Of a stretch of DNA of 64,000 nucleotides, positions 29,333 to 47,941 are shown piece after piece. The notes beneath the pieces are model-generated. The model ran no database searches. It saw only the letters and a program-made list of their open reading frames with translations, and was not told the origin of the DNA. The position numbers and the translations under genes were made by a program. Source of the stretch: Flavobacteriales bacterium (GTDB lineage Bacteria; Bacteroidota; Bacteroidia; Flavobacteriales_F; PHOS-HE28). The stretch is from contig JAHBUL010000002.1 of the NCBI GenBank assembly GCA_019638085.1, positions 62,001-126,000 on the forward strand. Reading direction: 5' to 3'. The first letter of the stretch is position 1. Each line of letters begins with the position of its first letter.

Positions 29333-30421
29333 ATGAAAATACACGGCCGTAACTCCGTACTCCTGCTTTGTGCCGGGCTGGTAGCCTTGTTCGCCTGTCA
29401 ACGAGACCCGGACATGGCTCAACCTCCCGGGCAAGGCGGCAACGGCCCTACACCGTACCAGTTGTCCTATCCGGATTGGGCCTCCACGGGCTCCCAACAA
29501 ATAATCATTCCGGTGGACAATCCACTGACCGTGGAGGGCATCGCGCTGGGCCGGAAGTTGTTCTATGAAAAAGCACTCTCGGACGACTATTCCATGTCCT
29601 GCGCCACCTGCCACCAGCAGGAATTCGCCTTCACCGATCCCCGGGTCGTTTCATTGGGGACGGACGGCTCGCCCGGCAGGCGTAATTCCATGGCGATTAC
29701 CAACCCGGCTTGGGAACAGTTCTTCTTTTGGGATGGTCGCGCCCCTTCGTTGGAGATGCAGGCCCTCGGCCCCGTGGCCAACATGGTGGAGATGCGCAAC
29801 ACCTGGCCCGAGGTGGAGAGCCGCTTGGCAGCCCATCCGGAGTACCCCTCGCTCTTCGAACAGGCATTCGGTTCGCCCGGGGTGGACAGCATGCGCGTGG
29901 TGAAAGCCATCGCCCAATTCGAGCGGACCTTCATCTCCTTCAATTCCCGCTTCGACCGTTATGAATACGGTGGGGATAGCACCGCACTTACCGCCCAGGA
30001 AAAGGCAGGCCGGGACCTCTACTTCGGAGAGGCCCAATGCAACCTTTGCCATACGGCGCCGCTCTTCTCCAACAACACCATCGTCAACATCGGGTTGGGC
30101 TTCGACCCCGATGATGCGGGCCTGGAGGAAGTGACCGGTGATCATTTTGATCTTGGTAAGTTCAAGACCAACACGATGCGCAACATCGAGGTAACAGGGC
30201 CTTATATGCATGATGGCCGCTTCGCAACGCTGGAAGAGGTCGTGGATTTTTACGCCGATTCCATCAGTTCCACCACACCCAACTTGGACAATCACATGCT
30301 CCCGTTCCTGGACGGCCAGCTCGGTCTGGATGCCGATGAACGAGCCGCGCTGGTGGCCTTCCTGAAGACACTTACGGATACGGAATTCCTCAACAACCCG
30401 GCATTCTCGGATCCGAACTGA
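29333..30421 (+). CDS. Di-haem cytochrome c peroxidase family lipoprotein
   Basis: A 362-residue protein with a lipoprotein signal (LLCAGLVALFAC) and two haem c sites, SCATCHQQEFAF and CNLCHTAPLFSN. This is the CcpA/MauG-like family: a high-potential and a low-potential haem reduce hydrogen peroxide or act on other substrates in the periplasm. The middle has NPAWEQFFFWDGRAPSLEMQ, typical of the family. It depends on cytochrome c maturation; the ccm cluster is ~11 kb downstream. Confidence 0.92.
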   Translation: MKIHGRNSVLLLCAGLVALFACQRDPDMAQPPGQGGNGPTPYQLSYPDWASTGSQQIIIPVDNPLTVEGIALGRKLFYEKALSDDYSMSCATCHQQEFAFTDPRVVSLGTDGSPGRRNSMAITNPAWEQFFFWDGRAPSLEMQALGPVANMVEMRNTWPEVESRLAAHPEYPSLFEQAFGSPGVDSMRVVKAIAQFERTFISFNSRFDRYEYGGDSTALTAQEKAGRDLYFGEAQCNLCHTAPLFSNNTIVNIGLGFDPDDAGLEEVTGDHFDLGKFKTNTMRNIEVTGPYMHDGRFATLEEVVDFYADSISSTTPNLDNHMLPFLDGQLGLDADERAALVAFLKTLTDTEFLNNPAFSDPN

Positions 30422-41336: not shown

Positions 41337-44138
41337 TCACGATTCCTTGACAGCCCGCTTCTTTCCGCCCTTCTTCCGCACCCGCTGCCGCACCGCTACG
41401 AAGGAGCCGAGGGTCATCAGGATGACGCCGATCCAGAGGATGTTGATGCCGGGGAAAATGATGGCCTGCATGATCACGAACTCGCGTTCGCTCACATTCA
41501 GTCCTACTTGGTTGCCCTTTACACTTTCCAGATCAAATTTCACGTCCAGCTCGGGGATGTCGAAGCCTTTGCTGCCCACGTTCTGGCCGTTGTGGTAGAT
41601 CACCACGGGTTGTGCCTCGAACCAGCGGTGCTCATCGTAGAGATCGCGTACGCGCATATCCAGGATGTACACGGTGAAGTCCGGACCCAGGCGTGAAATG
41701 GTGACGCTGTCCTGTACCGTGCGGATGCTGTCGATCAAGATCACACAGGTGGGGGTGACGATGGTGTCGCCCACGTTCTTCTCGTACAACCGTGCGGGCA
41801 TGTACCCGTCGGCAGCGGTATCCAGCTTGGCGTAGCGGATGTGCGTATAGAGGTCACGGTCCAGCCAATGCTTGGTGCTTGGTTCGGCCACGTTGCCGAA
41901 GCGTGGGTTCAGTTGCACCATCGGTTCCAACTGGAATTCCTTCGCACCCGGGCGGCGGGGCTTCCAATCGGGCGTGTTCCACAGTTGGCTCCGAGTGAAC
42001 GTCTCCAGCGGCGCCCAGTGATCGGGTTGGTCCACGATGAAGTTGTTTCCGGCCGTATGGTCGTTCTTGGCGATGAAGAGCATGCTCCGCACCCGCACCG
42101 TGTCCCCGGCGCTGTAACTGCGCGGCTCAGCAGTGAAGTAGTCCATGTCATACAGCAGGTTCACACCTACTTGACGCTTCCCCTTGAAGGTGACGAAGTA
42201 ATCGCCCACAGGCACGGTATCGCCCACGTATAGGAGCATGTCCTGCCCATCATTGAAATCCTTGTTCAGATAGCTCAGCACCGGTCCGGAGGTATTGCGG
42301 CTGACCTTGTGTTCGCGGGACATGCTGATCACCGATCCGAGCAGCACCATGGCGAAACCCACGTGGGCCATGGACGGTCCGGCATTGCTCAGCTTGCCTT
42401 TCAATACCAGCGGGATATAGAAGGCATTGGACAGTACGGCGAACCAGGAAGCGAAGAGCAGCGCGACGATGTTGCCTTCCGCCAGTCGGTAGTTGAGCCA
42501 CCACACACACAAGGCGGTGAGCAACAAGGCACCGAAAAAGCTGATCCGCAGTTCGCGGAAGAACTTCTTCCGATCGGTCTTTTTGTAGCGCAGGTATTGG
42601 CCGATGGCCACCAGCATCGCCACGATGAAGGCGAAAGGGATCTGCCACTTGTTGTAATGTGCCTTGGCCTCCACGGGAGGTGCCAAATTGTGCTGGGCCA
42701 GATCGTGTGCCCAGCCCCAGCCGGTGAGGTCGTGCAGACTTTCGAATGCACCATGGAACGGAGCCAAGAGCAGGTTGAACACCGGCATGCTCGTGCTGAA
42801 GGTGATCTGCGCCGCGCTGAGCATCAGCACCAAGGAGCCGATAAAGAGCCAGAACTCGCGGCTTAGCAATTCCTCTTCTTCTTGCCTTCGGAACGAGCCC
42901 TTCCGGTAGGCCACAACGGTCATGATAATGCTCACTGCGCCAAAGAGGATGATCGCTGGTACCTGCACTTGCAGGGTGATGCCCAGCACGAACATCACCA
43001 AACTGATGCCGATGTAGAACAATCTATCGGAGCGGTTCTGGTTCAACGCCGCCACGGATATGACCACGAAGGTGAGCATGAAGATGAGCAACCCGGCCAG
43101 CATGCCTTCTCCGGTGAAGCTGTGTACACTGGTATCACCCAGCACACCGCTGCGGGTCATGAAGGTGCTGTAGAGCACCATCAGGAAGGTGATCAGCGAC
43201 AGGAAGAAAGTAGTGAAGAGCGAAGTGTCCTTGCGCTTGTTGATCAGCATCAAGTGGCCAGCACCCACCAAGGTGAGCCAGGGCACCAACGAAGCATTCT
43301 CAACCGGGTCCCATGCCCAGAAGCCTCCGAAGCTGAGGGCCTCATACGCCCAAGCCCCACCCATCAGGATGCCAAGACCCAAAATGCCGATCCCGAAGAA
43401 GGTCCATGGAAGGGCGGGCTCCATCCATTCCTTCACACGCCTGGTCCAAAGGCCGGCAATGGCGAAAGCGAACGGCACCAATGTGGAGGCAAAGCCCAGG
43501 AAAAGGGTAGGAGGGTGGATCACCATCCAATAGTTCTGCAGGAGCGGGTTCAAGCCGCGTCCGTCGCTGAACTGTGGAATGATGGTGAGGTAGTTCGGGA
43601 GCTTCGTCCAAGGCAGGCCGATGTTCTCCGGAAGATCGCGGATGAGCATGAAGGGGCTGCTGCCCACTTTCACATCGAACACATAGATGCCCAGTAACAT
43701 GGTGGCCAAGAAGATCTGCACCAGTGCGAACACCGCCAGCACCGGGCCTTCCCAGCTCTTCGCCCGCCAGATCAGCAGATTGCCCAACACCATGGTCCAG
43801 AAGGCCCACAGCAGGAAGGAGCCTTCCTGACCTTCCCAGAAGCAGCTGGCGATATAACGCAGCGGCATCTCGGTATTGCTGTGCTTCCACACGTAGTCAT
43901 AGGCGAACCAGTGGTTGAAAAGCATCACGAACAGCGTGACCACGATGCCCAGGATGGCAATGGAGTGCGCCCGGAATGCGATCCGCCCCACGCTCCGCCA
44001 CCCCAGATCCTGGGTGCGCGTGTACAGCACGTAGGAGATCAGTGCGAAGAGCGCACCGGTAAAAGAGATGACGGTGAGCCAGTGGCCGAGCTGTCCGGCC
44101 CAGGCATGTTCACCAACGTAAGCAATGGAGTTGTCCAA
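41337..44138 (-). CDS. ccmF: Cytochrome c biogenesis haem lyase, CcmF-type
   Basis: A 933-residue protein, longer than the ~650 of E. coli CcmF. It has many membrane helices, the haem-facing HPPTLFLGF, and the WWD-type periplasmic motif GGFWAWDPVENASLVPWL. A large periplasmic domain of about 270 residues is near the end. It ligates haem from CcmE to apocytochrome c. Downstream of ccmE in the same direction. Confidence 0.92.
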   Translation of the reverse strand: MDNSIAYVGEHAWAGQLGHWLTVISFTGALFALISYVLYTRTQDLGWRSVGRIAFRAHSIAILGIVVTLFVMLFNHWFAYDYVWKHSNTEMPLRYIASCFWEGQEGSFLLWAFWTMVLGNLLIWRAKSWEGPVLAVFALVQIFLATMLLGIYVFDVKVGSSPFMLIRDLPENIGLPWTKLPNYLTIIPQFSDGRGLNPLLQNYWMVIHPPTLFLGFASTLVPFAFAIAGLWTRRVKEWMEPALPWTFFGIGILGLGILMGGAWAYEALSFGGFWAWDPVENASLVPWLTLVGAGHLMLINKRKDTSLFTTFFLSLITFLMVLYSTFMTRSGVLGDTSVHSFTGEGMLAGLLIFMLTFVVISVAALNQNRSDRLFYIGISLVMFVLGITLQVQVPAIILFGAVSIIMTVVAYRKGSFRRQEEEELLSREFWLFIGSLVLMLSAAQITFSTSMPVFNLLLAPFHGAFESLHDLTGWGWAHDLAQHNLAPPVEAKAHYNKWQIPFAFIVAMLVAIGQYLRYKKTDRKKFFRELRISFFGALLLTALCVWWLNYRLAEGNIVALLFASWFAVLSNAFYIPLVLKGKLSNAGPSMAHVGFAMVLLGSVISMSREHKVSRNTSGPVLSYLNKDFNDGQDMLLYVGDTVPVGDYFVTFKGKRQVGVNLLYDMDYFTAEPRSYSAGDTVRVRSMLFIAKNDHTAGNNFIVDQPDHWAPLETFTRSQLWNTPDWKPRRPGAKEFQLEPMVQLNPRFGNVAEPSTKHWLDRDLYTHIRYAKLDTAADGYMPARLYEKNVGDTIVTPTCVILIDSIRTVQDSVTISRLGPDFTVYILDMRVRDLYDEHRWFEAQPVVIYHNGQNVGSKGFDIPELDVKFDLESVKGNQVGLNVSEREFVIMQAIIFPGINILWIGVILMTLGSFVAVRQRVRKKGGKKRAVKES

Positions 44139-44226: not shown

Positions 44227-44622
44227 TTAAAGTCCTGCGGTCACTTGGTGTTCCTCGTTGTACTTGCTGGGGCACTTCATCAGCATGTCCTTGGCGTGGA
44301 ATTCGCCGTTGGCATCCGCCTCGCCGATCAATACCAAGCGTTCGGAGCGTTCCAGGTCGTTGGGTTTGGCCATGGCCAAGTTCACGTAGCATTTGCGGCC
44401 ATTGAGGTCCACCATGGCGAACTTCGTAAGGCTGGCATTCACACTTGGTTCGTACACGATGGGCTCGGAGCGGTCCAAGGTGCCCACCACGTGGAATTCA
44501 CGGCCGGGCTGCTCAAAGGCCTCGGTAAGGCTGGCATAGCTGCTACTATCGTTCAGTGAGCTGATCAACGCCGCAATGGCCACGGCTATGATGACTAGTG
44601 CGATGATGTGGCTGCGTTTCAT
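44227..44622 (-). CDS. ccmE: Cytochrome c maturation haem chaperone CcmE, Cys-type
   Basis: A 131-residue protein with an N-terminal anchor (IIALVIIAVAIAALISSL), an OB-fold (FHVVGTLDRSEPIVYEPSVN), and a C-terminal motif HAKDMLMKCPSKYNEEH. The usual haem-binding His (HxxxY) is replaced by Cys117 in CPSKY, giving CxxxY as in archaeal and Desulfovibrio CcmE. Holds haem covalently for CcmF. Confidence 0.9.
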   Translation of the reverse strand: MKRSHIIALVIIAVAIAALISSLNDSSSYASLTEAFEQPGREFHVVGTLDRSEPIVYEPSVNASLTKFAMVDLNGRKCYVNLAMAKPNDLERSERLVLIGEADANGEFHAKDMLMKCPSKYNEEHQVTAGL

Positions 44623-44635
44623 TTTCTGGTCTTCT

Positions 44636-44887
44636 TTAGTGCTGTCCTGCGTTCGTCTGCTCTTTCATGCGACGTTCCAACTTCCCGAGCCTGCGATCCA
44701 AGGCGAACATCCAGATGGCGATCCCAATAAGCACTGTGCTCACCACCATCACCACCGTATTGATCTTGCCGGATGCGAACATCGTCTCCTGCAACCAGCT
44801 CGGTGCGCCGGATGCCGCGAAGGTACTCATGGGCAAGGCGAGAAAGGCCATGACCACGGTCAATGGCTTAACGATCGTTAGCTTCAT
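44636..44887 (-). CDS. ccmD: CcmD-like small membrane protein
   Basis: An 83-residue protein with a signal-like N-terminus and one membrane helix (INTVVMVVSTVLIGIAIWMF) followed by a basic cytoplasmic coiled end (LDRRLGKLERRMKEQ). CcmD links CcmC and CcmE. It lies between ccmC and ccmE, overlapping ccmC by 20 bp. Confidence 0.8.
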   Translation of the reverse strand: MKLTIVKPLTVVMAFLALPMSTFAASGAPSWLQETMFASGKINTVVMVVSTVLIGIAIWMFALDRRLGKLERRMKEQTNAGQH

Positions 44888-45887
44888 CGTAAATGGATCT
44901 TAGGCGGGCGGTGCGCTGGTGCAGGGTATAGGCCCAGATACCCAACAGGATCCAGCCCATGACCGCAGGGTAGAATACCGCCCGGAGCGTGCTGTCCAGA
45001 TCGTATTGGTTGAAGGCCGGGTTTCCTCCGCTGCCCGGGTGCAGGGAATCCGTAAGGCGAGGCAGTACCATGATGAATACCATCATGAGCACATAGGCGA
45101 AGATGTTGTAGATCGCCGCCAAACGAGCCCGCTTATGCGGATCGGGAACGGAGCCGCGCAGGATGAGGTAGGCCGCGTAGATCAGAACCGTTACGGCAGC
45201 GCCATTGAGCTTGGGATCACTGGTCCACCAACCGCCCCACGTGGCGCGAGCCCAAATGCTCCCGGTGATCAATCCCAATGCGGCAAAGAGCAAGCTCACA
45301 TCCACAGCGGAAAGGGCCTTACCATCAGCGACCAGATCACCCGAGCGCAGCACCAGCAGGCTCTGCCAGAAAGCGATCGTCATCAGCACCATCATGGTGA
45401 ACCACATGGGCACGTGGAAGAACAGGTTGCGGATGGTCTCGTTGAGGATGGAACGGTTCGGAAATGCGAAGCTGGTGCGCGCTGCATCGCTTACTACACA
45501 ATCATCTTGCGCAATACCGGTACCCAGGCCTTGGGTGAAGAATGCCTCGCGCAGCACCACTTGTCCATCCGCCGCATCCCACGCCCAAAGGCTGGTCAGG
45601 TTGGTGCGGAATCCTTCGGGAACATTGAAGTCAGCAGAAAACTGGACGTCCGACAGGACCTTCACGTCCGTGGCACACACCCGCTGGCCATCATTCTCCA
45701 ACCAGACCTCAGGCGTGTTCGCTGCGAAGTGCGTGTTGTAACCGGTGGCTTCCAAAGAGATGGGACCCGGGGCGATACGGTCGATGGAAGCATGGACCAG
45801 GGCCGGACCTAATGGCGTTCCCAATCCAACGATCACCACGTAGAGCAGGAGCACTACCGAAAGCAACTTCCACCACCAACCCTTCAT
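44868..45887 (-). CDS. ccmC: Cytochrome c biogenesis protein CcmC-type (CcsA family)
   Basis: About 339 residues from MKGWWWKLLSVVLLLYVVIV. A periplasmic domain (RIAPGPISLEATGYNTHFAA) is followed by six membrane helices with the WWD motif WARATWGGWWTSDPKLNGAA. Transfers haem to CcmE. The ATG shares a base with the TAA of ccmB. Confidence 0.9.
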   Translation of the reverse strand: MKGWWWKLLSVVLLLYVVIVGLGTPLGPALVHASIDRIAPGPISLEATGYNTHFAANTPEVWLENDGQRVCATDVKVLSDVQFSADFNVPEGFRTNLTSLWAWDAADGQVVLREAFFTQGLGTGIAQDDCVVSDAARTSFAFPNRSILNETIRNLFFHVPMWFTMMVLMTIAFWQSLLVLRSGDLVADGKALSAVDVSLLFAALGLITGSIWARATWGGWWTSDPKLNGAAVTVLIYAAYLILRGSVPDPHKRARLAAIYNIFAYVLMMVFIMVLPRLTDSLHPGSGGNPAFNQYDLDSTLRAVFYPAVMGWILLGIWAYTLHQRTARLRSIYDEANDR

Positions 45888-46555
45888 TAGTCGCGCCAAA
45901 GGTAAGGGAAGAGCAACCAGGCGAGGGCCACGGTGATCAGGTCGATCAGCACCAGCCATAGCACGTACTTCCCGGTGATGTCCCAACCCAGTCCATCCAA
46001 GGCTAATTTGCTTGCTTTCATCACGCTCAGCAACATGGGCAGCACGATGGGAAAGCCGAGGATCGCCATCAGCCCCACGCCGTTCCCTGCACGTGCCGCC
46101 AAAGCGGAGATCAAGGTGAGGACCAAGGCAAAGCCGATGCCACCTACGATCACGACCAATAGAAAGATGTCAAGTCGGGCATCGTTCATGGGTGAGCTTC
46201 CTATGAAGAGGGCGTAGGCCCCCAAGCTCAAGAGGCTCAGCACGCCCATGGTGATACCGTTGTAGATCGTTCGTGCCAGGACCACGCTGCGCGGTGAGGC
46301 TAAGGTGTAGAGGTAAAGCTGGCGTCCGGTATTCTCCCGCTGAAAGGAGCGCCCCAAGGCATTGAATGCCGCAAAAAGAAGGATGATCCAGAACAAGGCG
46401 TTCCAGATCGGGATATCGAAAAGGTGCCGAACACCTTGGTAACACACATAGATGGTACTCACCACATAGAGCGCCATGCTACCCCACGCATGCTTCTGGC
46501 GGCGGTCCAGTTGCCATTCCAGCTTCAAGAGGTGGGCGATCTCGGCGGTGCGCAT
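45887..46555 (-). CDS. ccmB: CcmB-type haem exporter membrane subunit
   Basis: A 222-residue protein from MRTAEIAHLLKLEWQLDRRQ with six membrane helices (FWIILLFAAFNALGRSFQRE, LGFPIVLPMLLSVMKASKLA). CcmB forms the membrane part of the CcmAB complex that releases holo-CcmE. No ccmA is in the window, so it must lie elsewhere if present. The longer frame to 46654 is Pro-rich and non-homologous. Confidence 0.85.
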   Translation of the reverse strand: MRTAEIAHLLKLEWQLDRRQKHAWGSMALYVVSTIYVCYQGVRHLFDIPIWNALFWIILLFAAFNALGRSFQRENTGRQLYLYTLASPRSVVLARTIYNGITMGVLSLLSLGAYALFIGSSPMNDARLDIFLLVVIVGGIGFALVLTLISALAARAGNGVGLMAILGFPIVLPMLLSVMKASKLALDGLGWDITGKYVLWLVLIDLITVALAWLLFPYLWRD

Positions 46556-46894
46556 CGGATAGGCGGCGAAGGTAGAGAGCGGGGCATTGGTATTAGTGGT
46601 GGAAGGAGGGCAGTACGGCGGAAGCGGTGATGGCCCGGTCATATGTATGGCCATACATTATGATACGCTGAAACGCGATGGCACTGTACACTGGGCAATA
46701 CGCTATCCTGCTGGAGATCTGAGTCTTGCGGATTCAGATGAAGACTAGGTTCAAAGGTGCGGACAACAGAGGTGTGCGGCCATACATATGAGATTTCCGA
46801 TGACTCACTGTATAAAAATAGCCAGCATCTCAACGATCATTCTACACGGCAACCGTCCTTTGCGGCACGTGCTAGCCGAGTAGAAGCATCCACA
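46556..46894. promoter_or_regulatory. Divergent intergenic region with inverted repeat
   Basis: The 339 bp between ccmB and the epimerase. It has a perfect palindrome ATGTATGGCCATACAT at 46643-46658, plus a second half-site GGCCATACATATGA at 46778-46791 that is an exact reverse complement of TCATATGTATGGCC at 46639-46652. A further hairpin is near 46718-46740. This could be an operator for a divergent regulator or the ends of a small palindromic element. Confidence 0.55.
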
Positions 46895-47941
46895 ATGCCC
46901 ATCACCATCAGCTACTGTCCCTATCGGCTGCTCTTCAAGCATCCATTCGGAACGGCCCATGGGGTTCGCACAGGGACAGATAGCATTTTCATTCGTCTGG
47001 AAGAGAATGGTGTTTTTGGATATGGGGAAGTCACATTGCCGCCGTACCTGAAGGAAAAGCCGGATGCCGTAATAGATCGGTTGCACCGTGTGGGTAGCCG
47101 GGAGATCGGGAATTCCGATGCCTTGAAGCTGCTGCTGGAGGATCAAACGCTGTTTGGGCCAGATGCTCAAGGTTGCAGAGCAGGTGTGCAGATGGCTTTA
47201 AGTGATCTAATAGGAAATCAGATTCAACTTCCTGTAAATCAGATAATCGATGTGAATCCGGATAAGTCAGTAGCCACCTTGGTCACCGTTGGGTTATCCG
47301 GCTTGGATGAGCTTTCATGCAAGATAGAGGAACTACCTGGCTCGGATGCATTGAAACTGAAAGTAGGTCATGAAGGATCGCTCGATACAATACAAAGGAT
47401 CAGGCAGTTAGATGGCCGTCCATTGTTCTTGGATGCAAATCAAGGGCTGTCCACGATCCAAGAAGCCTTGTTGCTGGTAGAGGCTGCTGGTGATCGGCTA
47501 TTGGCTATGGAACAACCATTTCCAGTGAAGAGAAACGATCTCCAGAAGCAGTTACAGGAACGCCTGGGTGTGGTGATCTATGGAGATGAATCCATTCAAG
47601 ACCTGAATGAACTGGAAAATTCAGTGGGAGTATTCAAAGGATTGAATATCAAGTTAATGAAGTGCGGAGGCTTGGATCGGGCCAAGGCCTTGATGGATCG
47701 TGCTGCGGTATTGGGCATGAAGGTGATGCTCGGCAGTATGAGCGAGAGTTCCCTGGGGTGCACGGCCATGGCACACATGGCGGGTAAAGCAGACATCGTT
47801 GACCTGGATGGCCCGTGGTTGATCAAGAATGATCCATTTCAGGGGATAAGCATGGATCATGGAAAACTGATCATGCCGCACGGTCCGGGTATCGGAGCCG
47901 TCCTTCGTACTGAACTTGAGTTCAAGTCAATCTGCGCATAA
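46895..47941 (+). CDS. Dipeptide epimerase (enolase superfamily, L-Ala-D/L-Glu epimerase-like)
   Basis: About 348 residues from MPITISYCPYRLLFKHPFGT. It has the MLE-subgroup catalytic pattern: the KxK pair in ALKLKVGHEG, metal ligands LFLDANQG, LLAMEQPFP and VIYGDES, and the second Lys in LNIKLMKCGG. It epimerises dipeptides from peptidoglycan turnover. Codon use is more AT-rich than in flanking genes, hinting at transfer. It is next to the ccm genes but divergent. Confidence 0.88.
   Translation: MPITISYCPYRLLFKHPFGTAHGVRTGTDSIFIRLEENGVFGYGEVTLPPYLKEKPDAVIDRLHRVGSREIGNSDALKLLLEDQTLFGPDAQGCRAGVQMALSDLIGNQIQLPVNQIIDVNPDKSVATLVTVGLSGLDELSCKIEELPGSDALKLKVGHEGSLDTIQRIRQLDGRPLFLDANQGLSTIQEALLLVEAAGDRLLAMEQPFPVKRNDLQKQLQERLGVVIYGDESIQDLNELENSVGVFKGLNIKLMKCGGLDRAKALMDRAAVLGMKVMLGSMSESSLGCTAMAHMAGKADIVDLDGPWLIKNDPFQGISMDHGKLIMPHGPGIGAVLRTELEFKSICA

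Follow-up and report, generated by a model that had tools for sequence, protein, structure and literature searches.

A Cys-type CcmE in a Flavobacteriales cytochrome c maturation operon exemplifies the usual form of this chaperone in Bacteroidota

The gene at 44227-44622 of the window (the whole 64,000-nucleotide stretch of Flavobacteriales DNA analysed here) very probably supplies a System I*, or Cys-type, cytochrome c maturation pathway with its periplasmic haem chaperone; the pathway would follow a CcmABCDEF route without CcmH, and we put the probability of this reading at about 0.88. A 2011 review defines System I* by the replacement of His by Cys in CcmE and places it in archaea and some bacteria, the delta-proteobacteria contributing the largest share alongside chloroflexi and firmicutes (PMC3601427). 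The window CcmE is a correct but ordinary case of this known variant, which is the normal form in its phylum. Our literature search, whose scope left most of the subscription literature aside, found nothing on the Cys-type CcmE in Bacteroidota, and we do not claim that the subject is unpublished. The features on which the analysis draws are as follows.

29333 to 30418, plus strand: di-haem cytochrome c peroxidase / MauG family (PF03150, 186.1 bits; two CXXCH motifs, CATCH and CNLCH)
41337 to 44138, minus strand: ccmF, cytochrome c synthase, 933 aa (PF01578, 88.5 bits; PF16327, 30.5 bits)
44227 to 44622, minus strand: ccmE, Cys-type haem chaperone, 131 aa (Pfam PF03100, motif and predicted fold)
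44260 to 44274, minus strand: stretch coding for CPSKY, with Cys117 the presumed haem-binding residue (sequence and residue position)
44636 to 44887, minus strand: ccmD-like gene (CcmD_alt), 83 aa (Pfam PF20077, 42.4 bits, cut-off 23.5)
44868 to 45887, minus strand: ccmC (PF01578, 69.1 bits; TIGR01191, 66.9 bits, below the cut-off of 186)
45887 to 46654, minus strand: ccmB, 255 aa, first gene of the operon (PF03379, 31.4 bits, cut-off 24.9)

The original prediction had recognized a CcmE between these coordinates in which Cys117 of a CPSKY motif replaces the usual His. The coordinates were right, with the gene lying on the minus strand, and a plus-strand translation of the same interval is interrupted by internal stops. 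The minus-strand frame opens with an ATG, carries CPSKY at residues 117-121, and surpassed the curated Pfam PF03100 cut-off (E 1.3e-8; 35.5 bits against 24.6) over residues 37-123; a search with NCBIfam profiles returned no match for the protein. Profile matching with a masked motif put CPSKY at the position of the E. coli His (HDENY), so the replacement of His by Cys, with Tyr four residues on (CXXXY), was borne out. CPSKY is also the commonest System I* motif, occurring in 25 of 36 genomes in the 2011 compilation (PMC3601427).

The predicted structure has the N-terminal membrane anchor and OB fold of a CcmE. The AlphaFold2 model (mean pLDDT 87.1) places a membrane helix at residues 3-23 ahead of a five-strand OB fold, which ends at residue 116, immediately before Cys117. 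Foldseek with this model gave as its top match the CcmE structure 1lm0 (E 8e-5; TM 0.53/0.67); the leading matches were His-type proteins (1lm0 and 8ce8), and the Cys-type structure 2kct ranked 25th. Searching solved structures with the single window sequence yielded no match, and searching all of them with a profile of ten Bacteroidota CcmE sequences gave 2kct, the Cys-type CcmE of Desulfovibrio vulgaris, as the best (E 5.4e-7). A second cysteine, at residue 78 (GRKCYV), does not occur in the nine other sequences of the alignment.

The nearest named relatives, which place the window in Bacteroidota, are titled Bacteroidetes or Flavobacteriales, with identities of up to 76%. CPSKY is kept in all 38 named relatives that were aligned, from loci partly seeded on the motif itself. 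The window CcmE with its CPSKY is no chance occurrence, because its neighbours, likewise on the minus strand, are ccmB, ccmC, the CcmD-like gene and ccmF, and because the motif is kept in relatives and across the phylum.

These genes form a same-strand operon on the minus strand in the order ccmB, ccmC, CcmD_alt gene, ccmE and ccmF, the ATG of ccmC overlapping the stop of ccmB. There is no ccmA in the operon, since a divergent enolase-superfamily gene (46757-47941, plus strand) sits upstream of ccmB. Aligned to E. coli, CcmC has His at the positions of His60 and His184 and retains the WWxxD motif, and CcmF retains His at the equivalents of positions 173, 261, 303 and 491. All six positions were His in every aligned row, the rows comprising 52 of 57 named-locus CcmC and 66 of 75 named-locus CcmF sequences after the remainder had been dropped for frame length. 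In E. coli these histidines are haem ligands.

Both proteins differ from their E. coli counterparts in length. The N terminus of CcmC is longer by about 100 residues, with 156 residues ahead of the first conserved His versus 59 in E. coli; more than 140 residues precede this His in 14 of the 52 named-locus CcmC sequences, counted in stop-to-stop frames that give upper bounds. CcmF has 933 residues versus 647 for the E. coli protein; its insertions start at about residue 368, and the largest is near the C-terminal end.

We then considered which maturation system the whole genome encodes, the assembly being 99.02% complete. It contains a single CcmE profile match. The original prediction had found neither ccmH nor ccmI in the cluster, which we confirmed, and the search for CcmH with PF03918 gave no match anywhere in the genome; a CcmH that has diverged beyond the reach of this profile may exist. 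The further proposal that the missing CcmH marks the Cys-type variant held only in part: no CcmH is detectable here, but about one third of bacteria with a Cys-type CcmE possess CcmH, whose absence is frequent in System I* and is not characteristic of it (PMC3601427). CcmB, CcmC and CcmF are encoded in the window, and CcmA was assigned by tree and signature at a score under the TIGR01189 cut-off, completing the CcmA/B/C/F set of System I*.

An E. coli-type System I would require the HXXXY His that is Cys117 here, and a CcmH. It is conceivable that such a system operates in this organism, with the window CcmE an extra or decayed copy and the real CcmE and CcmH encoded elsewhere; the lone CcmE and the lack of a CcmH match in a nearly complete genome, together with an intact gene whose motif is common across the phylum, leave this reading with almost no probability. 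System II (CcsBA/ResB) might instead do the main work of maturation. ResB without CcmE is indeed the pattern in other families of the window's class (f4, f5, f7, f12 and f13), but PF05140 found no ResB/CcsB in this genome and only 3 of 98 genomes of the class have both CcmE and ResB, which makes such a division of labour very improbable.

The operon had suggested a genome without CcmA. We dropped that idea, as a profile, an SSGMKQR signature, a tree and a pattern count together picked out a ccmA candidate on another contig (G000:C32:81020-81607), which carries FSSGMKQRLKLA. The profile was built from five ATPases belonging to other families in the phylum, of which four adjoin ccmB. A CcmA-like ATPase lies directly before ccmB in 6 of 40 phylum neighbourhoods fetched (L129, L134, L136, L141, L145 and L148), and SSGMKQR(L/I)K is common to those six and to one nearby but detached ATPase in L135. 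The core pattern GMKQRxK occurs at exactly one site in the genome under study, C32:81419-81439. In the tree, the candidate grouped with 30 fetched profile hits (support 100/99), the ATPases that adjoin ccmB in the phylum sharing its branch, apart from seven other ATPases of its own genome that were placed; E. coli CcmA fell outside the Bacteroidota CcmA branch, elsewhere and on a very long branch.

Scores were less discriminating. None of the 35 ATPase matches returned by the TIGR01189 search of the genome reached the cut-off of 131.6, and the candidate stood seventh among them at 94 bits; with the Bacteroidota profile it reached 150 bits, no higher than longer ATPases from genomes lacking CcmE. 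The signature itself tracks CcmE. GMKQRxK was present in 36 of 42 CcmE-containing genomes of the window's class and in 1 of 56 without CcmE, and across the phylum in 117 of the 253 genomes that have CcmE and in 3 of the 142 that lack it, counts that are not independent given that the genomes are related. Many genomes outside the class escape the exact signature, as the 117 of 253 indicates, and a backwards-read control pattern matched in about ten of the 395 genomes, counted by eye. In the window's class, ccmA stands apart from the operon yet accompanies CcmE. The only genome of the class with the signature and no CcmE match, G253, has a marginal ResB match (6.6e-4), and a divergent CcmE may have been overlooked there.

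By analogy with characterized relatives, we propose the following path for haem. CcmC, together with CcmD, would present it on its WWD face, and the membrane-anchored CcmE would capture it through Cys117, most likely as a covalent adduct. CcmA, encoded on its separate contig, and CcmB would drive an ATP-dependent release, after which holo-CcmE would pass the haem to CcmF for attachment to CXXCH apocytochromes. The original prediction named the di-haem peroxidase at 29333 as one recipient; its membership of PF03150 and its two CXXCH motifs were confirmed, which makes it a fair candidate and likely client of the Ccm system. Thiol reduction without CcmH would presumably run from a DsbD-type protein to a TlpA-like thioredoxin; the genome has one DsbD_TM protein, on G000:C19.

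The nature of the bond at Cys117 admits a second interpretation, in which the pathway is the same but Cys117 only coordinates the haem iron as a non-covalent thiolate, and transfer to CcmF is a ligand exchange. According to a 2013 review, the attachment of ferric haem to D. vulgaris CcmE via C127 is non-covalent, unlike that in the CcmE of D. desulfuricans (PMC3884852), and the 2011 review notes that breaking a thioether would not be easy (PMC3601427). Against this, covalent binding was reported for the Desulfovibrio CcmE tested in E. coli (PMC3601427), and a 2022 study demonstrated by haem staining that haem on Methanosarcina CcmE needs the Cys of CXXXY (PMC9084895). We regard coordination alone as unlikely, and favour a covalent adduct at Cys117.

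The operon and its partners can be compared with three characterized systems. Like Desulfovibrio System I*, this system has an OB-fold CcmE with the Cys motif, CcmB, CcmC, CcmD and CcmF, and an operon without CcmH; the Desulfovibrio operon yields cytochrome c in E. coli without CcmG or CcmH (PMC3601427). Here, in contrast to Desulfovibrio, CcmA is on another contig, CcmC is N-terminally extended, and the CcmE sequence is only distantly similar. The Ccm system of Methanosarcina acetivorans likewise combines a CXXXY CcmE with CcmABCEF and a CcdA/DsbD-type supplier of reductant and has no CcmH or CcmI, the absence of CcmI having been seen in our case at the level of the cluster; it differs in that a CcmD-like gene is present here and that CcmF is one long gene here and split in two there (PMC9084895). 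With E. coli System I (CcmABCDEFGH), the system described here shares the gene order B-C-D-E-F, the CcmE fold and the ligand His of CcmC and CcmF, and departs from it in the Cys that replaces the haem-binding His (HDENY), the lack of a CcmH match and the detached ccmA.

We surveyed 395 genomes drawn from the phylum, in 253 of which CcmE was present. The motif was read in 85 of these 253 (L001-L031, 32 more within L128-L167 and 22 within L168-L189), which by hand count represent every one of the 50 family labels with CcmE. Every one of the 85, found with the Pfam profile, had Cys: 84 read CPSKY and one (L142) CPSRY. The CcmE profile used to pick frames had the motif masked, and E. coli was read as HDENY in the same run. 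All 80 named loci also read CPSKY, but these were seeded partly on LxKCPSKY and are biased accordingly, so we base the frequency on the 85 Pfam-profile genomes. Two loci with a Bacteroidota-type CPSKY ccmE bear other titles, L096 (Salinisphaeraceae) and L114 (Competibacteraceae), and are most likely misbinned contigs.

CcmH matches were found in 11 of the 395 genomes, all with CcmE, and only 4 were over the cut-off. Five weak loci (L040-L044) have CGCGSC- or CTCGDC-type motifs, four of them with zinc-ribbon-like CXXC pairs ahead; from their sequences, these are possibly an unusual CcmH-like protein. ResB was present in 159 of the 395 genomes. CcmE or ResB occurred in 387, and both together in 25, several of these overlaps involving weak ResB matches. 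CcmE and System II ResB are therefore nearly complementary in the phylum, and wherever we read CcmE the usual condition is a Cys-type protein in the absence of CcmH.

The original prediction treated a Bacteroidota host as an oddity. That surprise is gone, because every CcmE read in the phylum is Cys-type and CcmH is almost absent. What is mildly new is the phylum-wide extent of the variant, the almost mutually exclusive distribution that it shows with System II, and the location of ccmA away from the operon. The Cys-type CcmE should not be seen as a rare feature of archaea and Desulfovibrio, since a phylum rich in cultured members has it as the standard form; several Chitinophaga species, for example, carry ccmE-ccmF. 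Bacteroidota would offer more tractable organisms for asking if haem is covalently bound to CcmE and how cytochrome c maturation proceeds in the absence of CcmH.

A broader and distinctly speculative proposal, which we consider improbable, is that Bacteroidota make up a very large bacterial reservoir of Cys-type Ccm systems that do without CcmH. The larger CcmF and, in some of the class, the longer CcmC would have taken over the handling of apocytochromes from CcmH and CcmI, with CcmA encoded, and perhaps regulated, apart. If this were true, the phylum would lend itself naturally to testing how much System I can shrink, because across its families Ccm swaps almost cleanly with System II.
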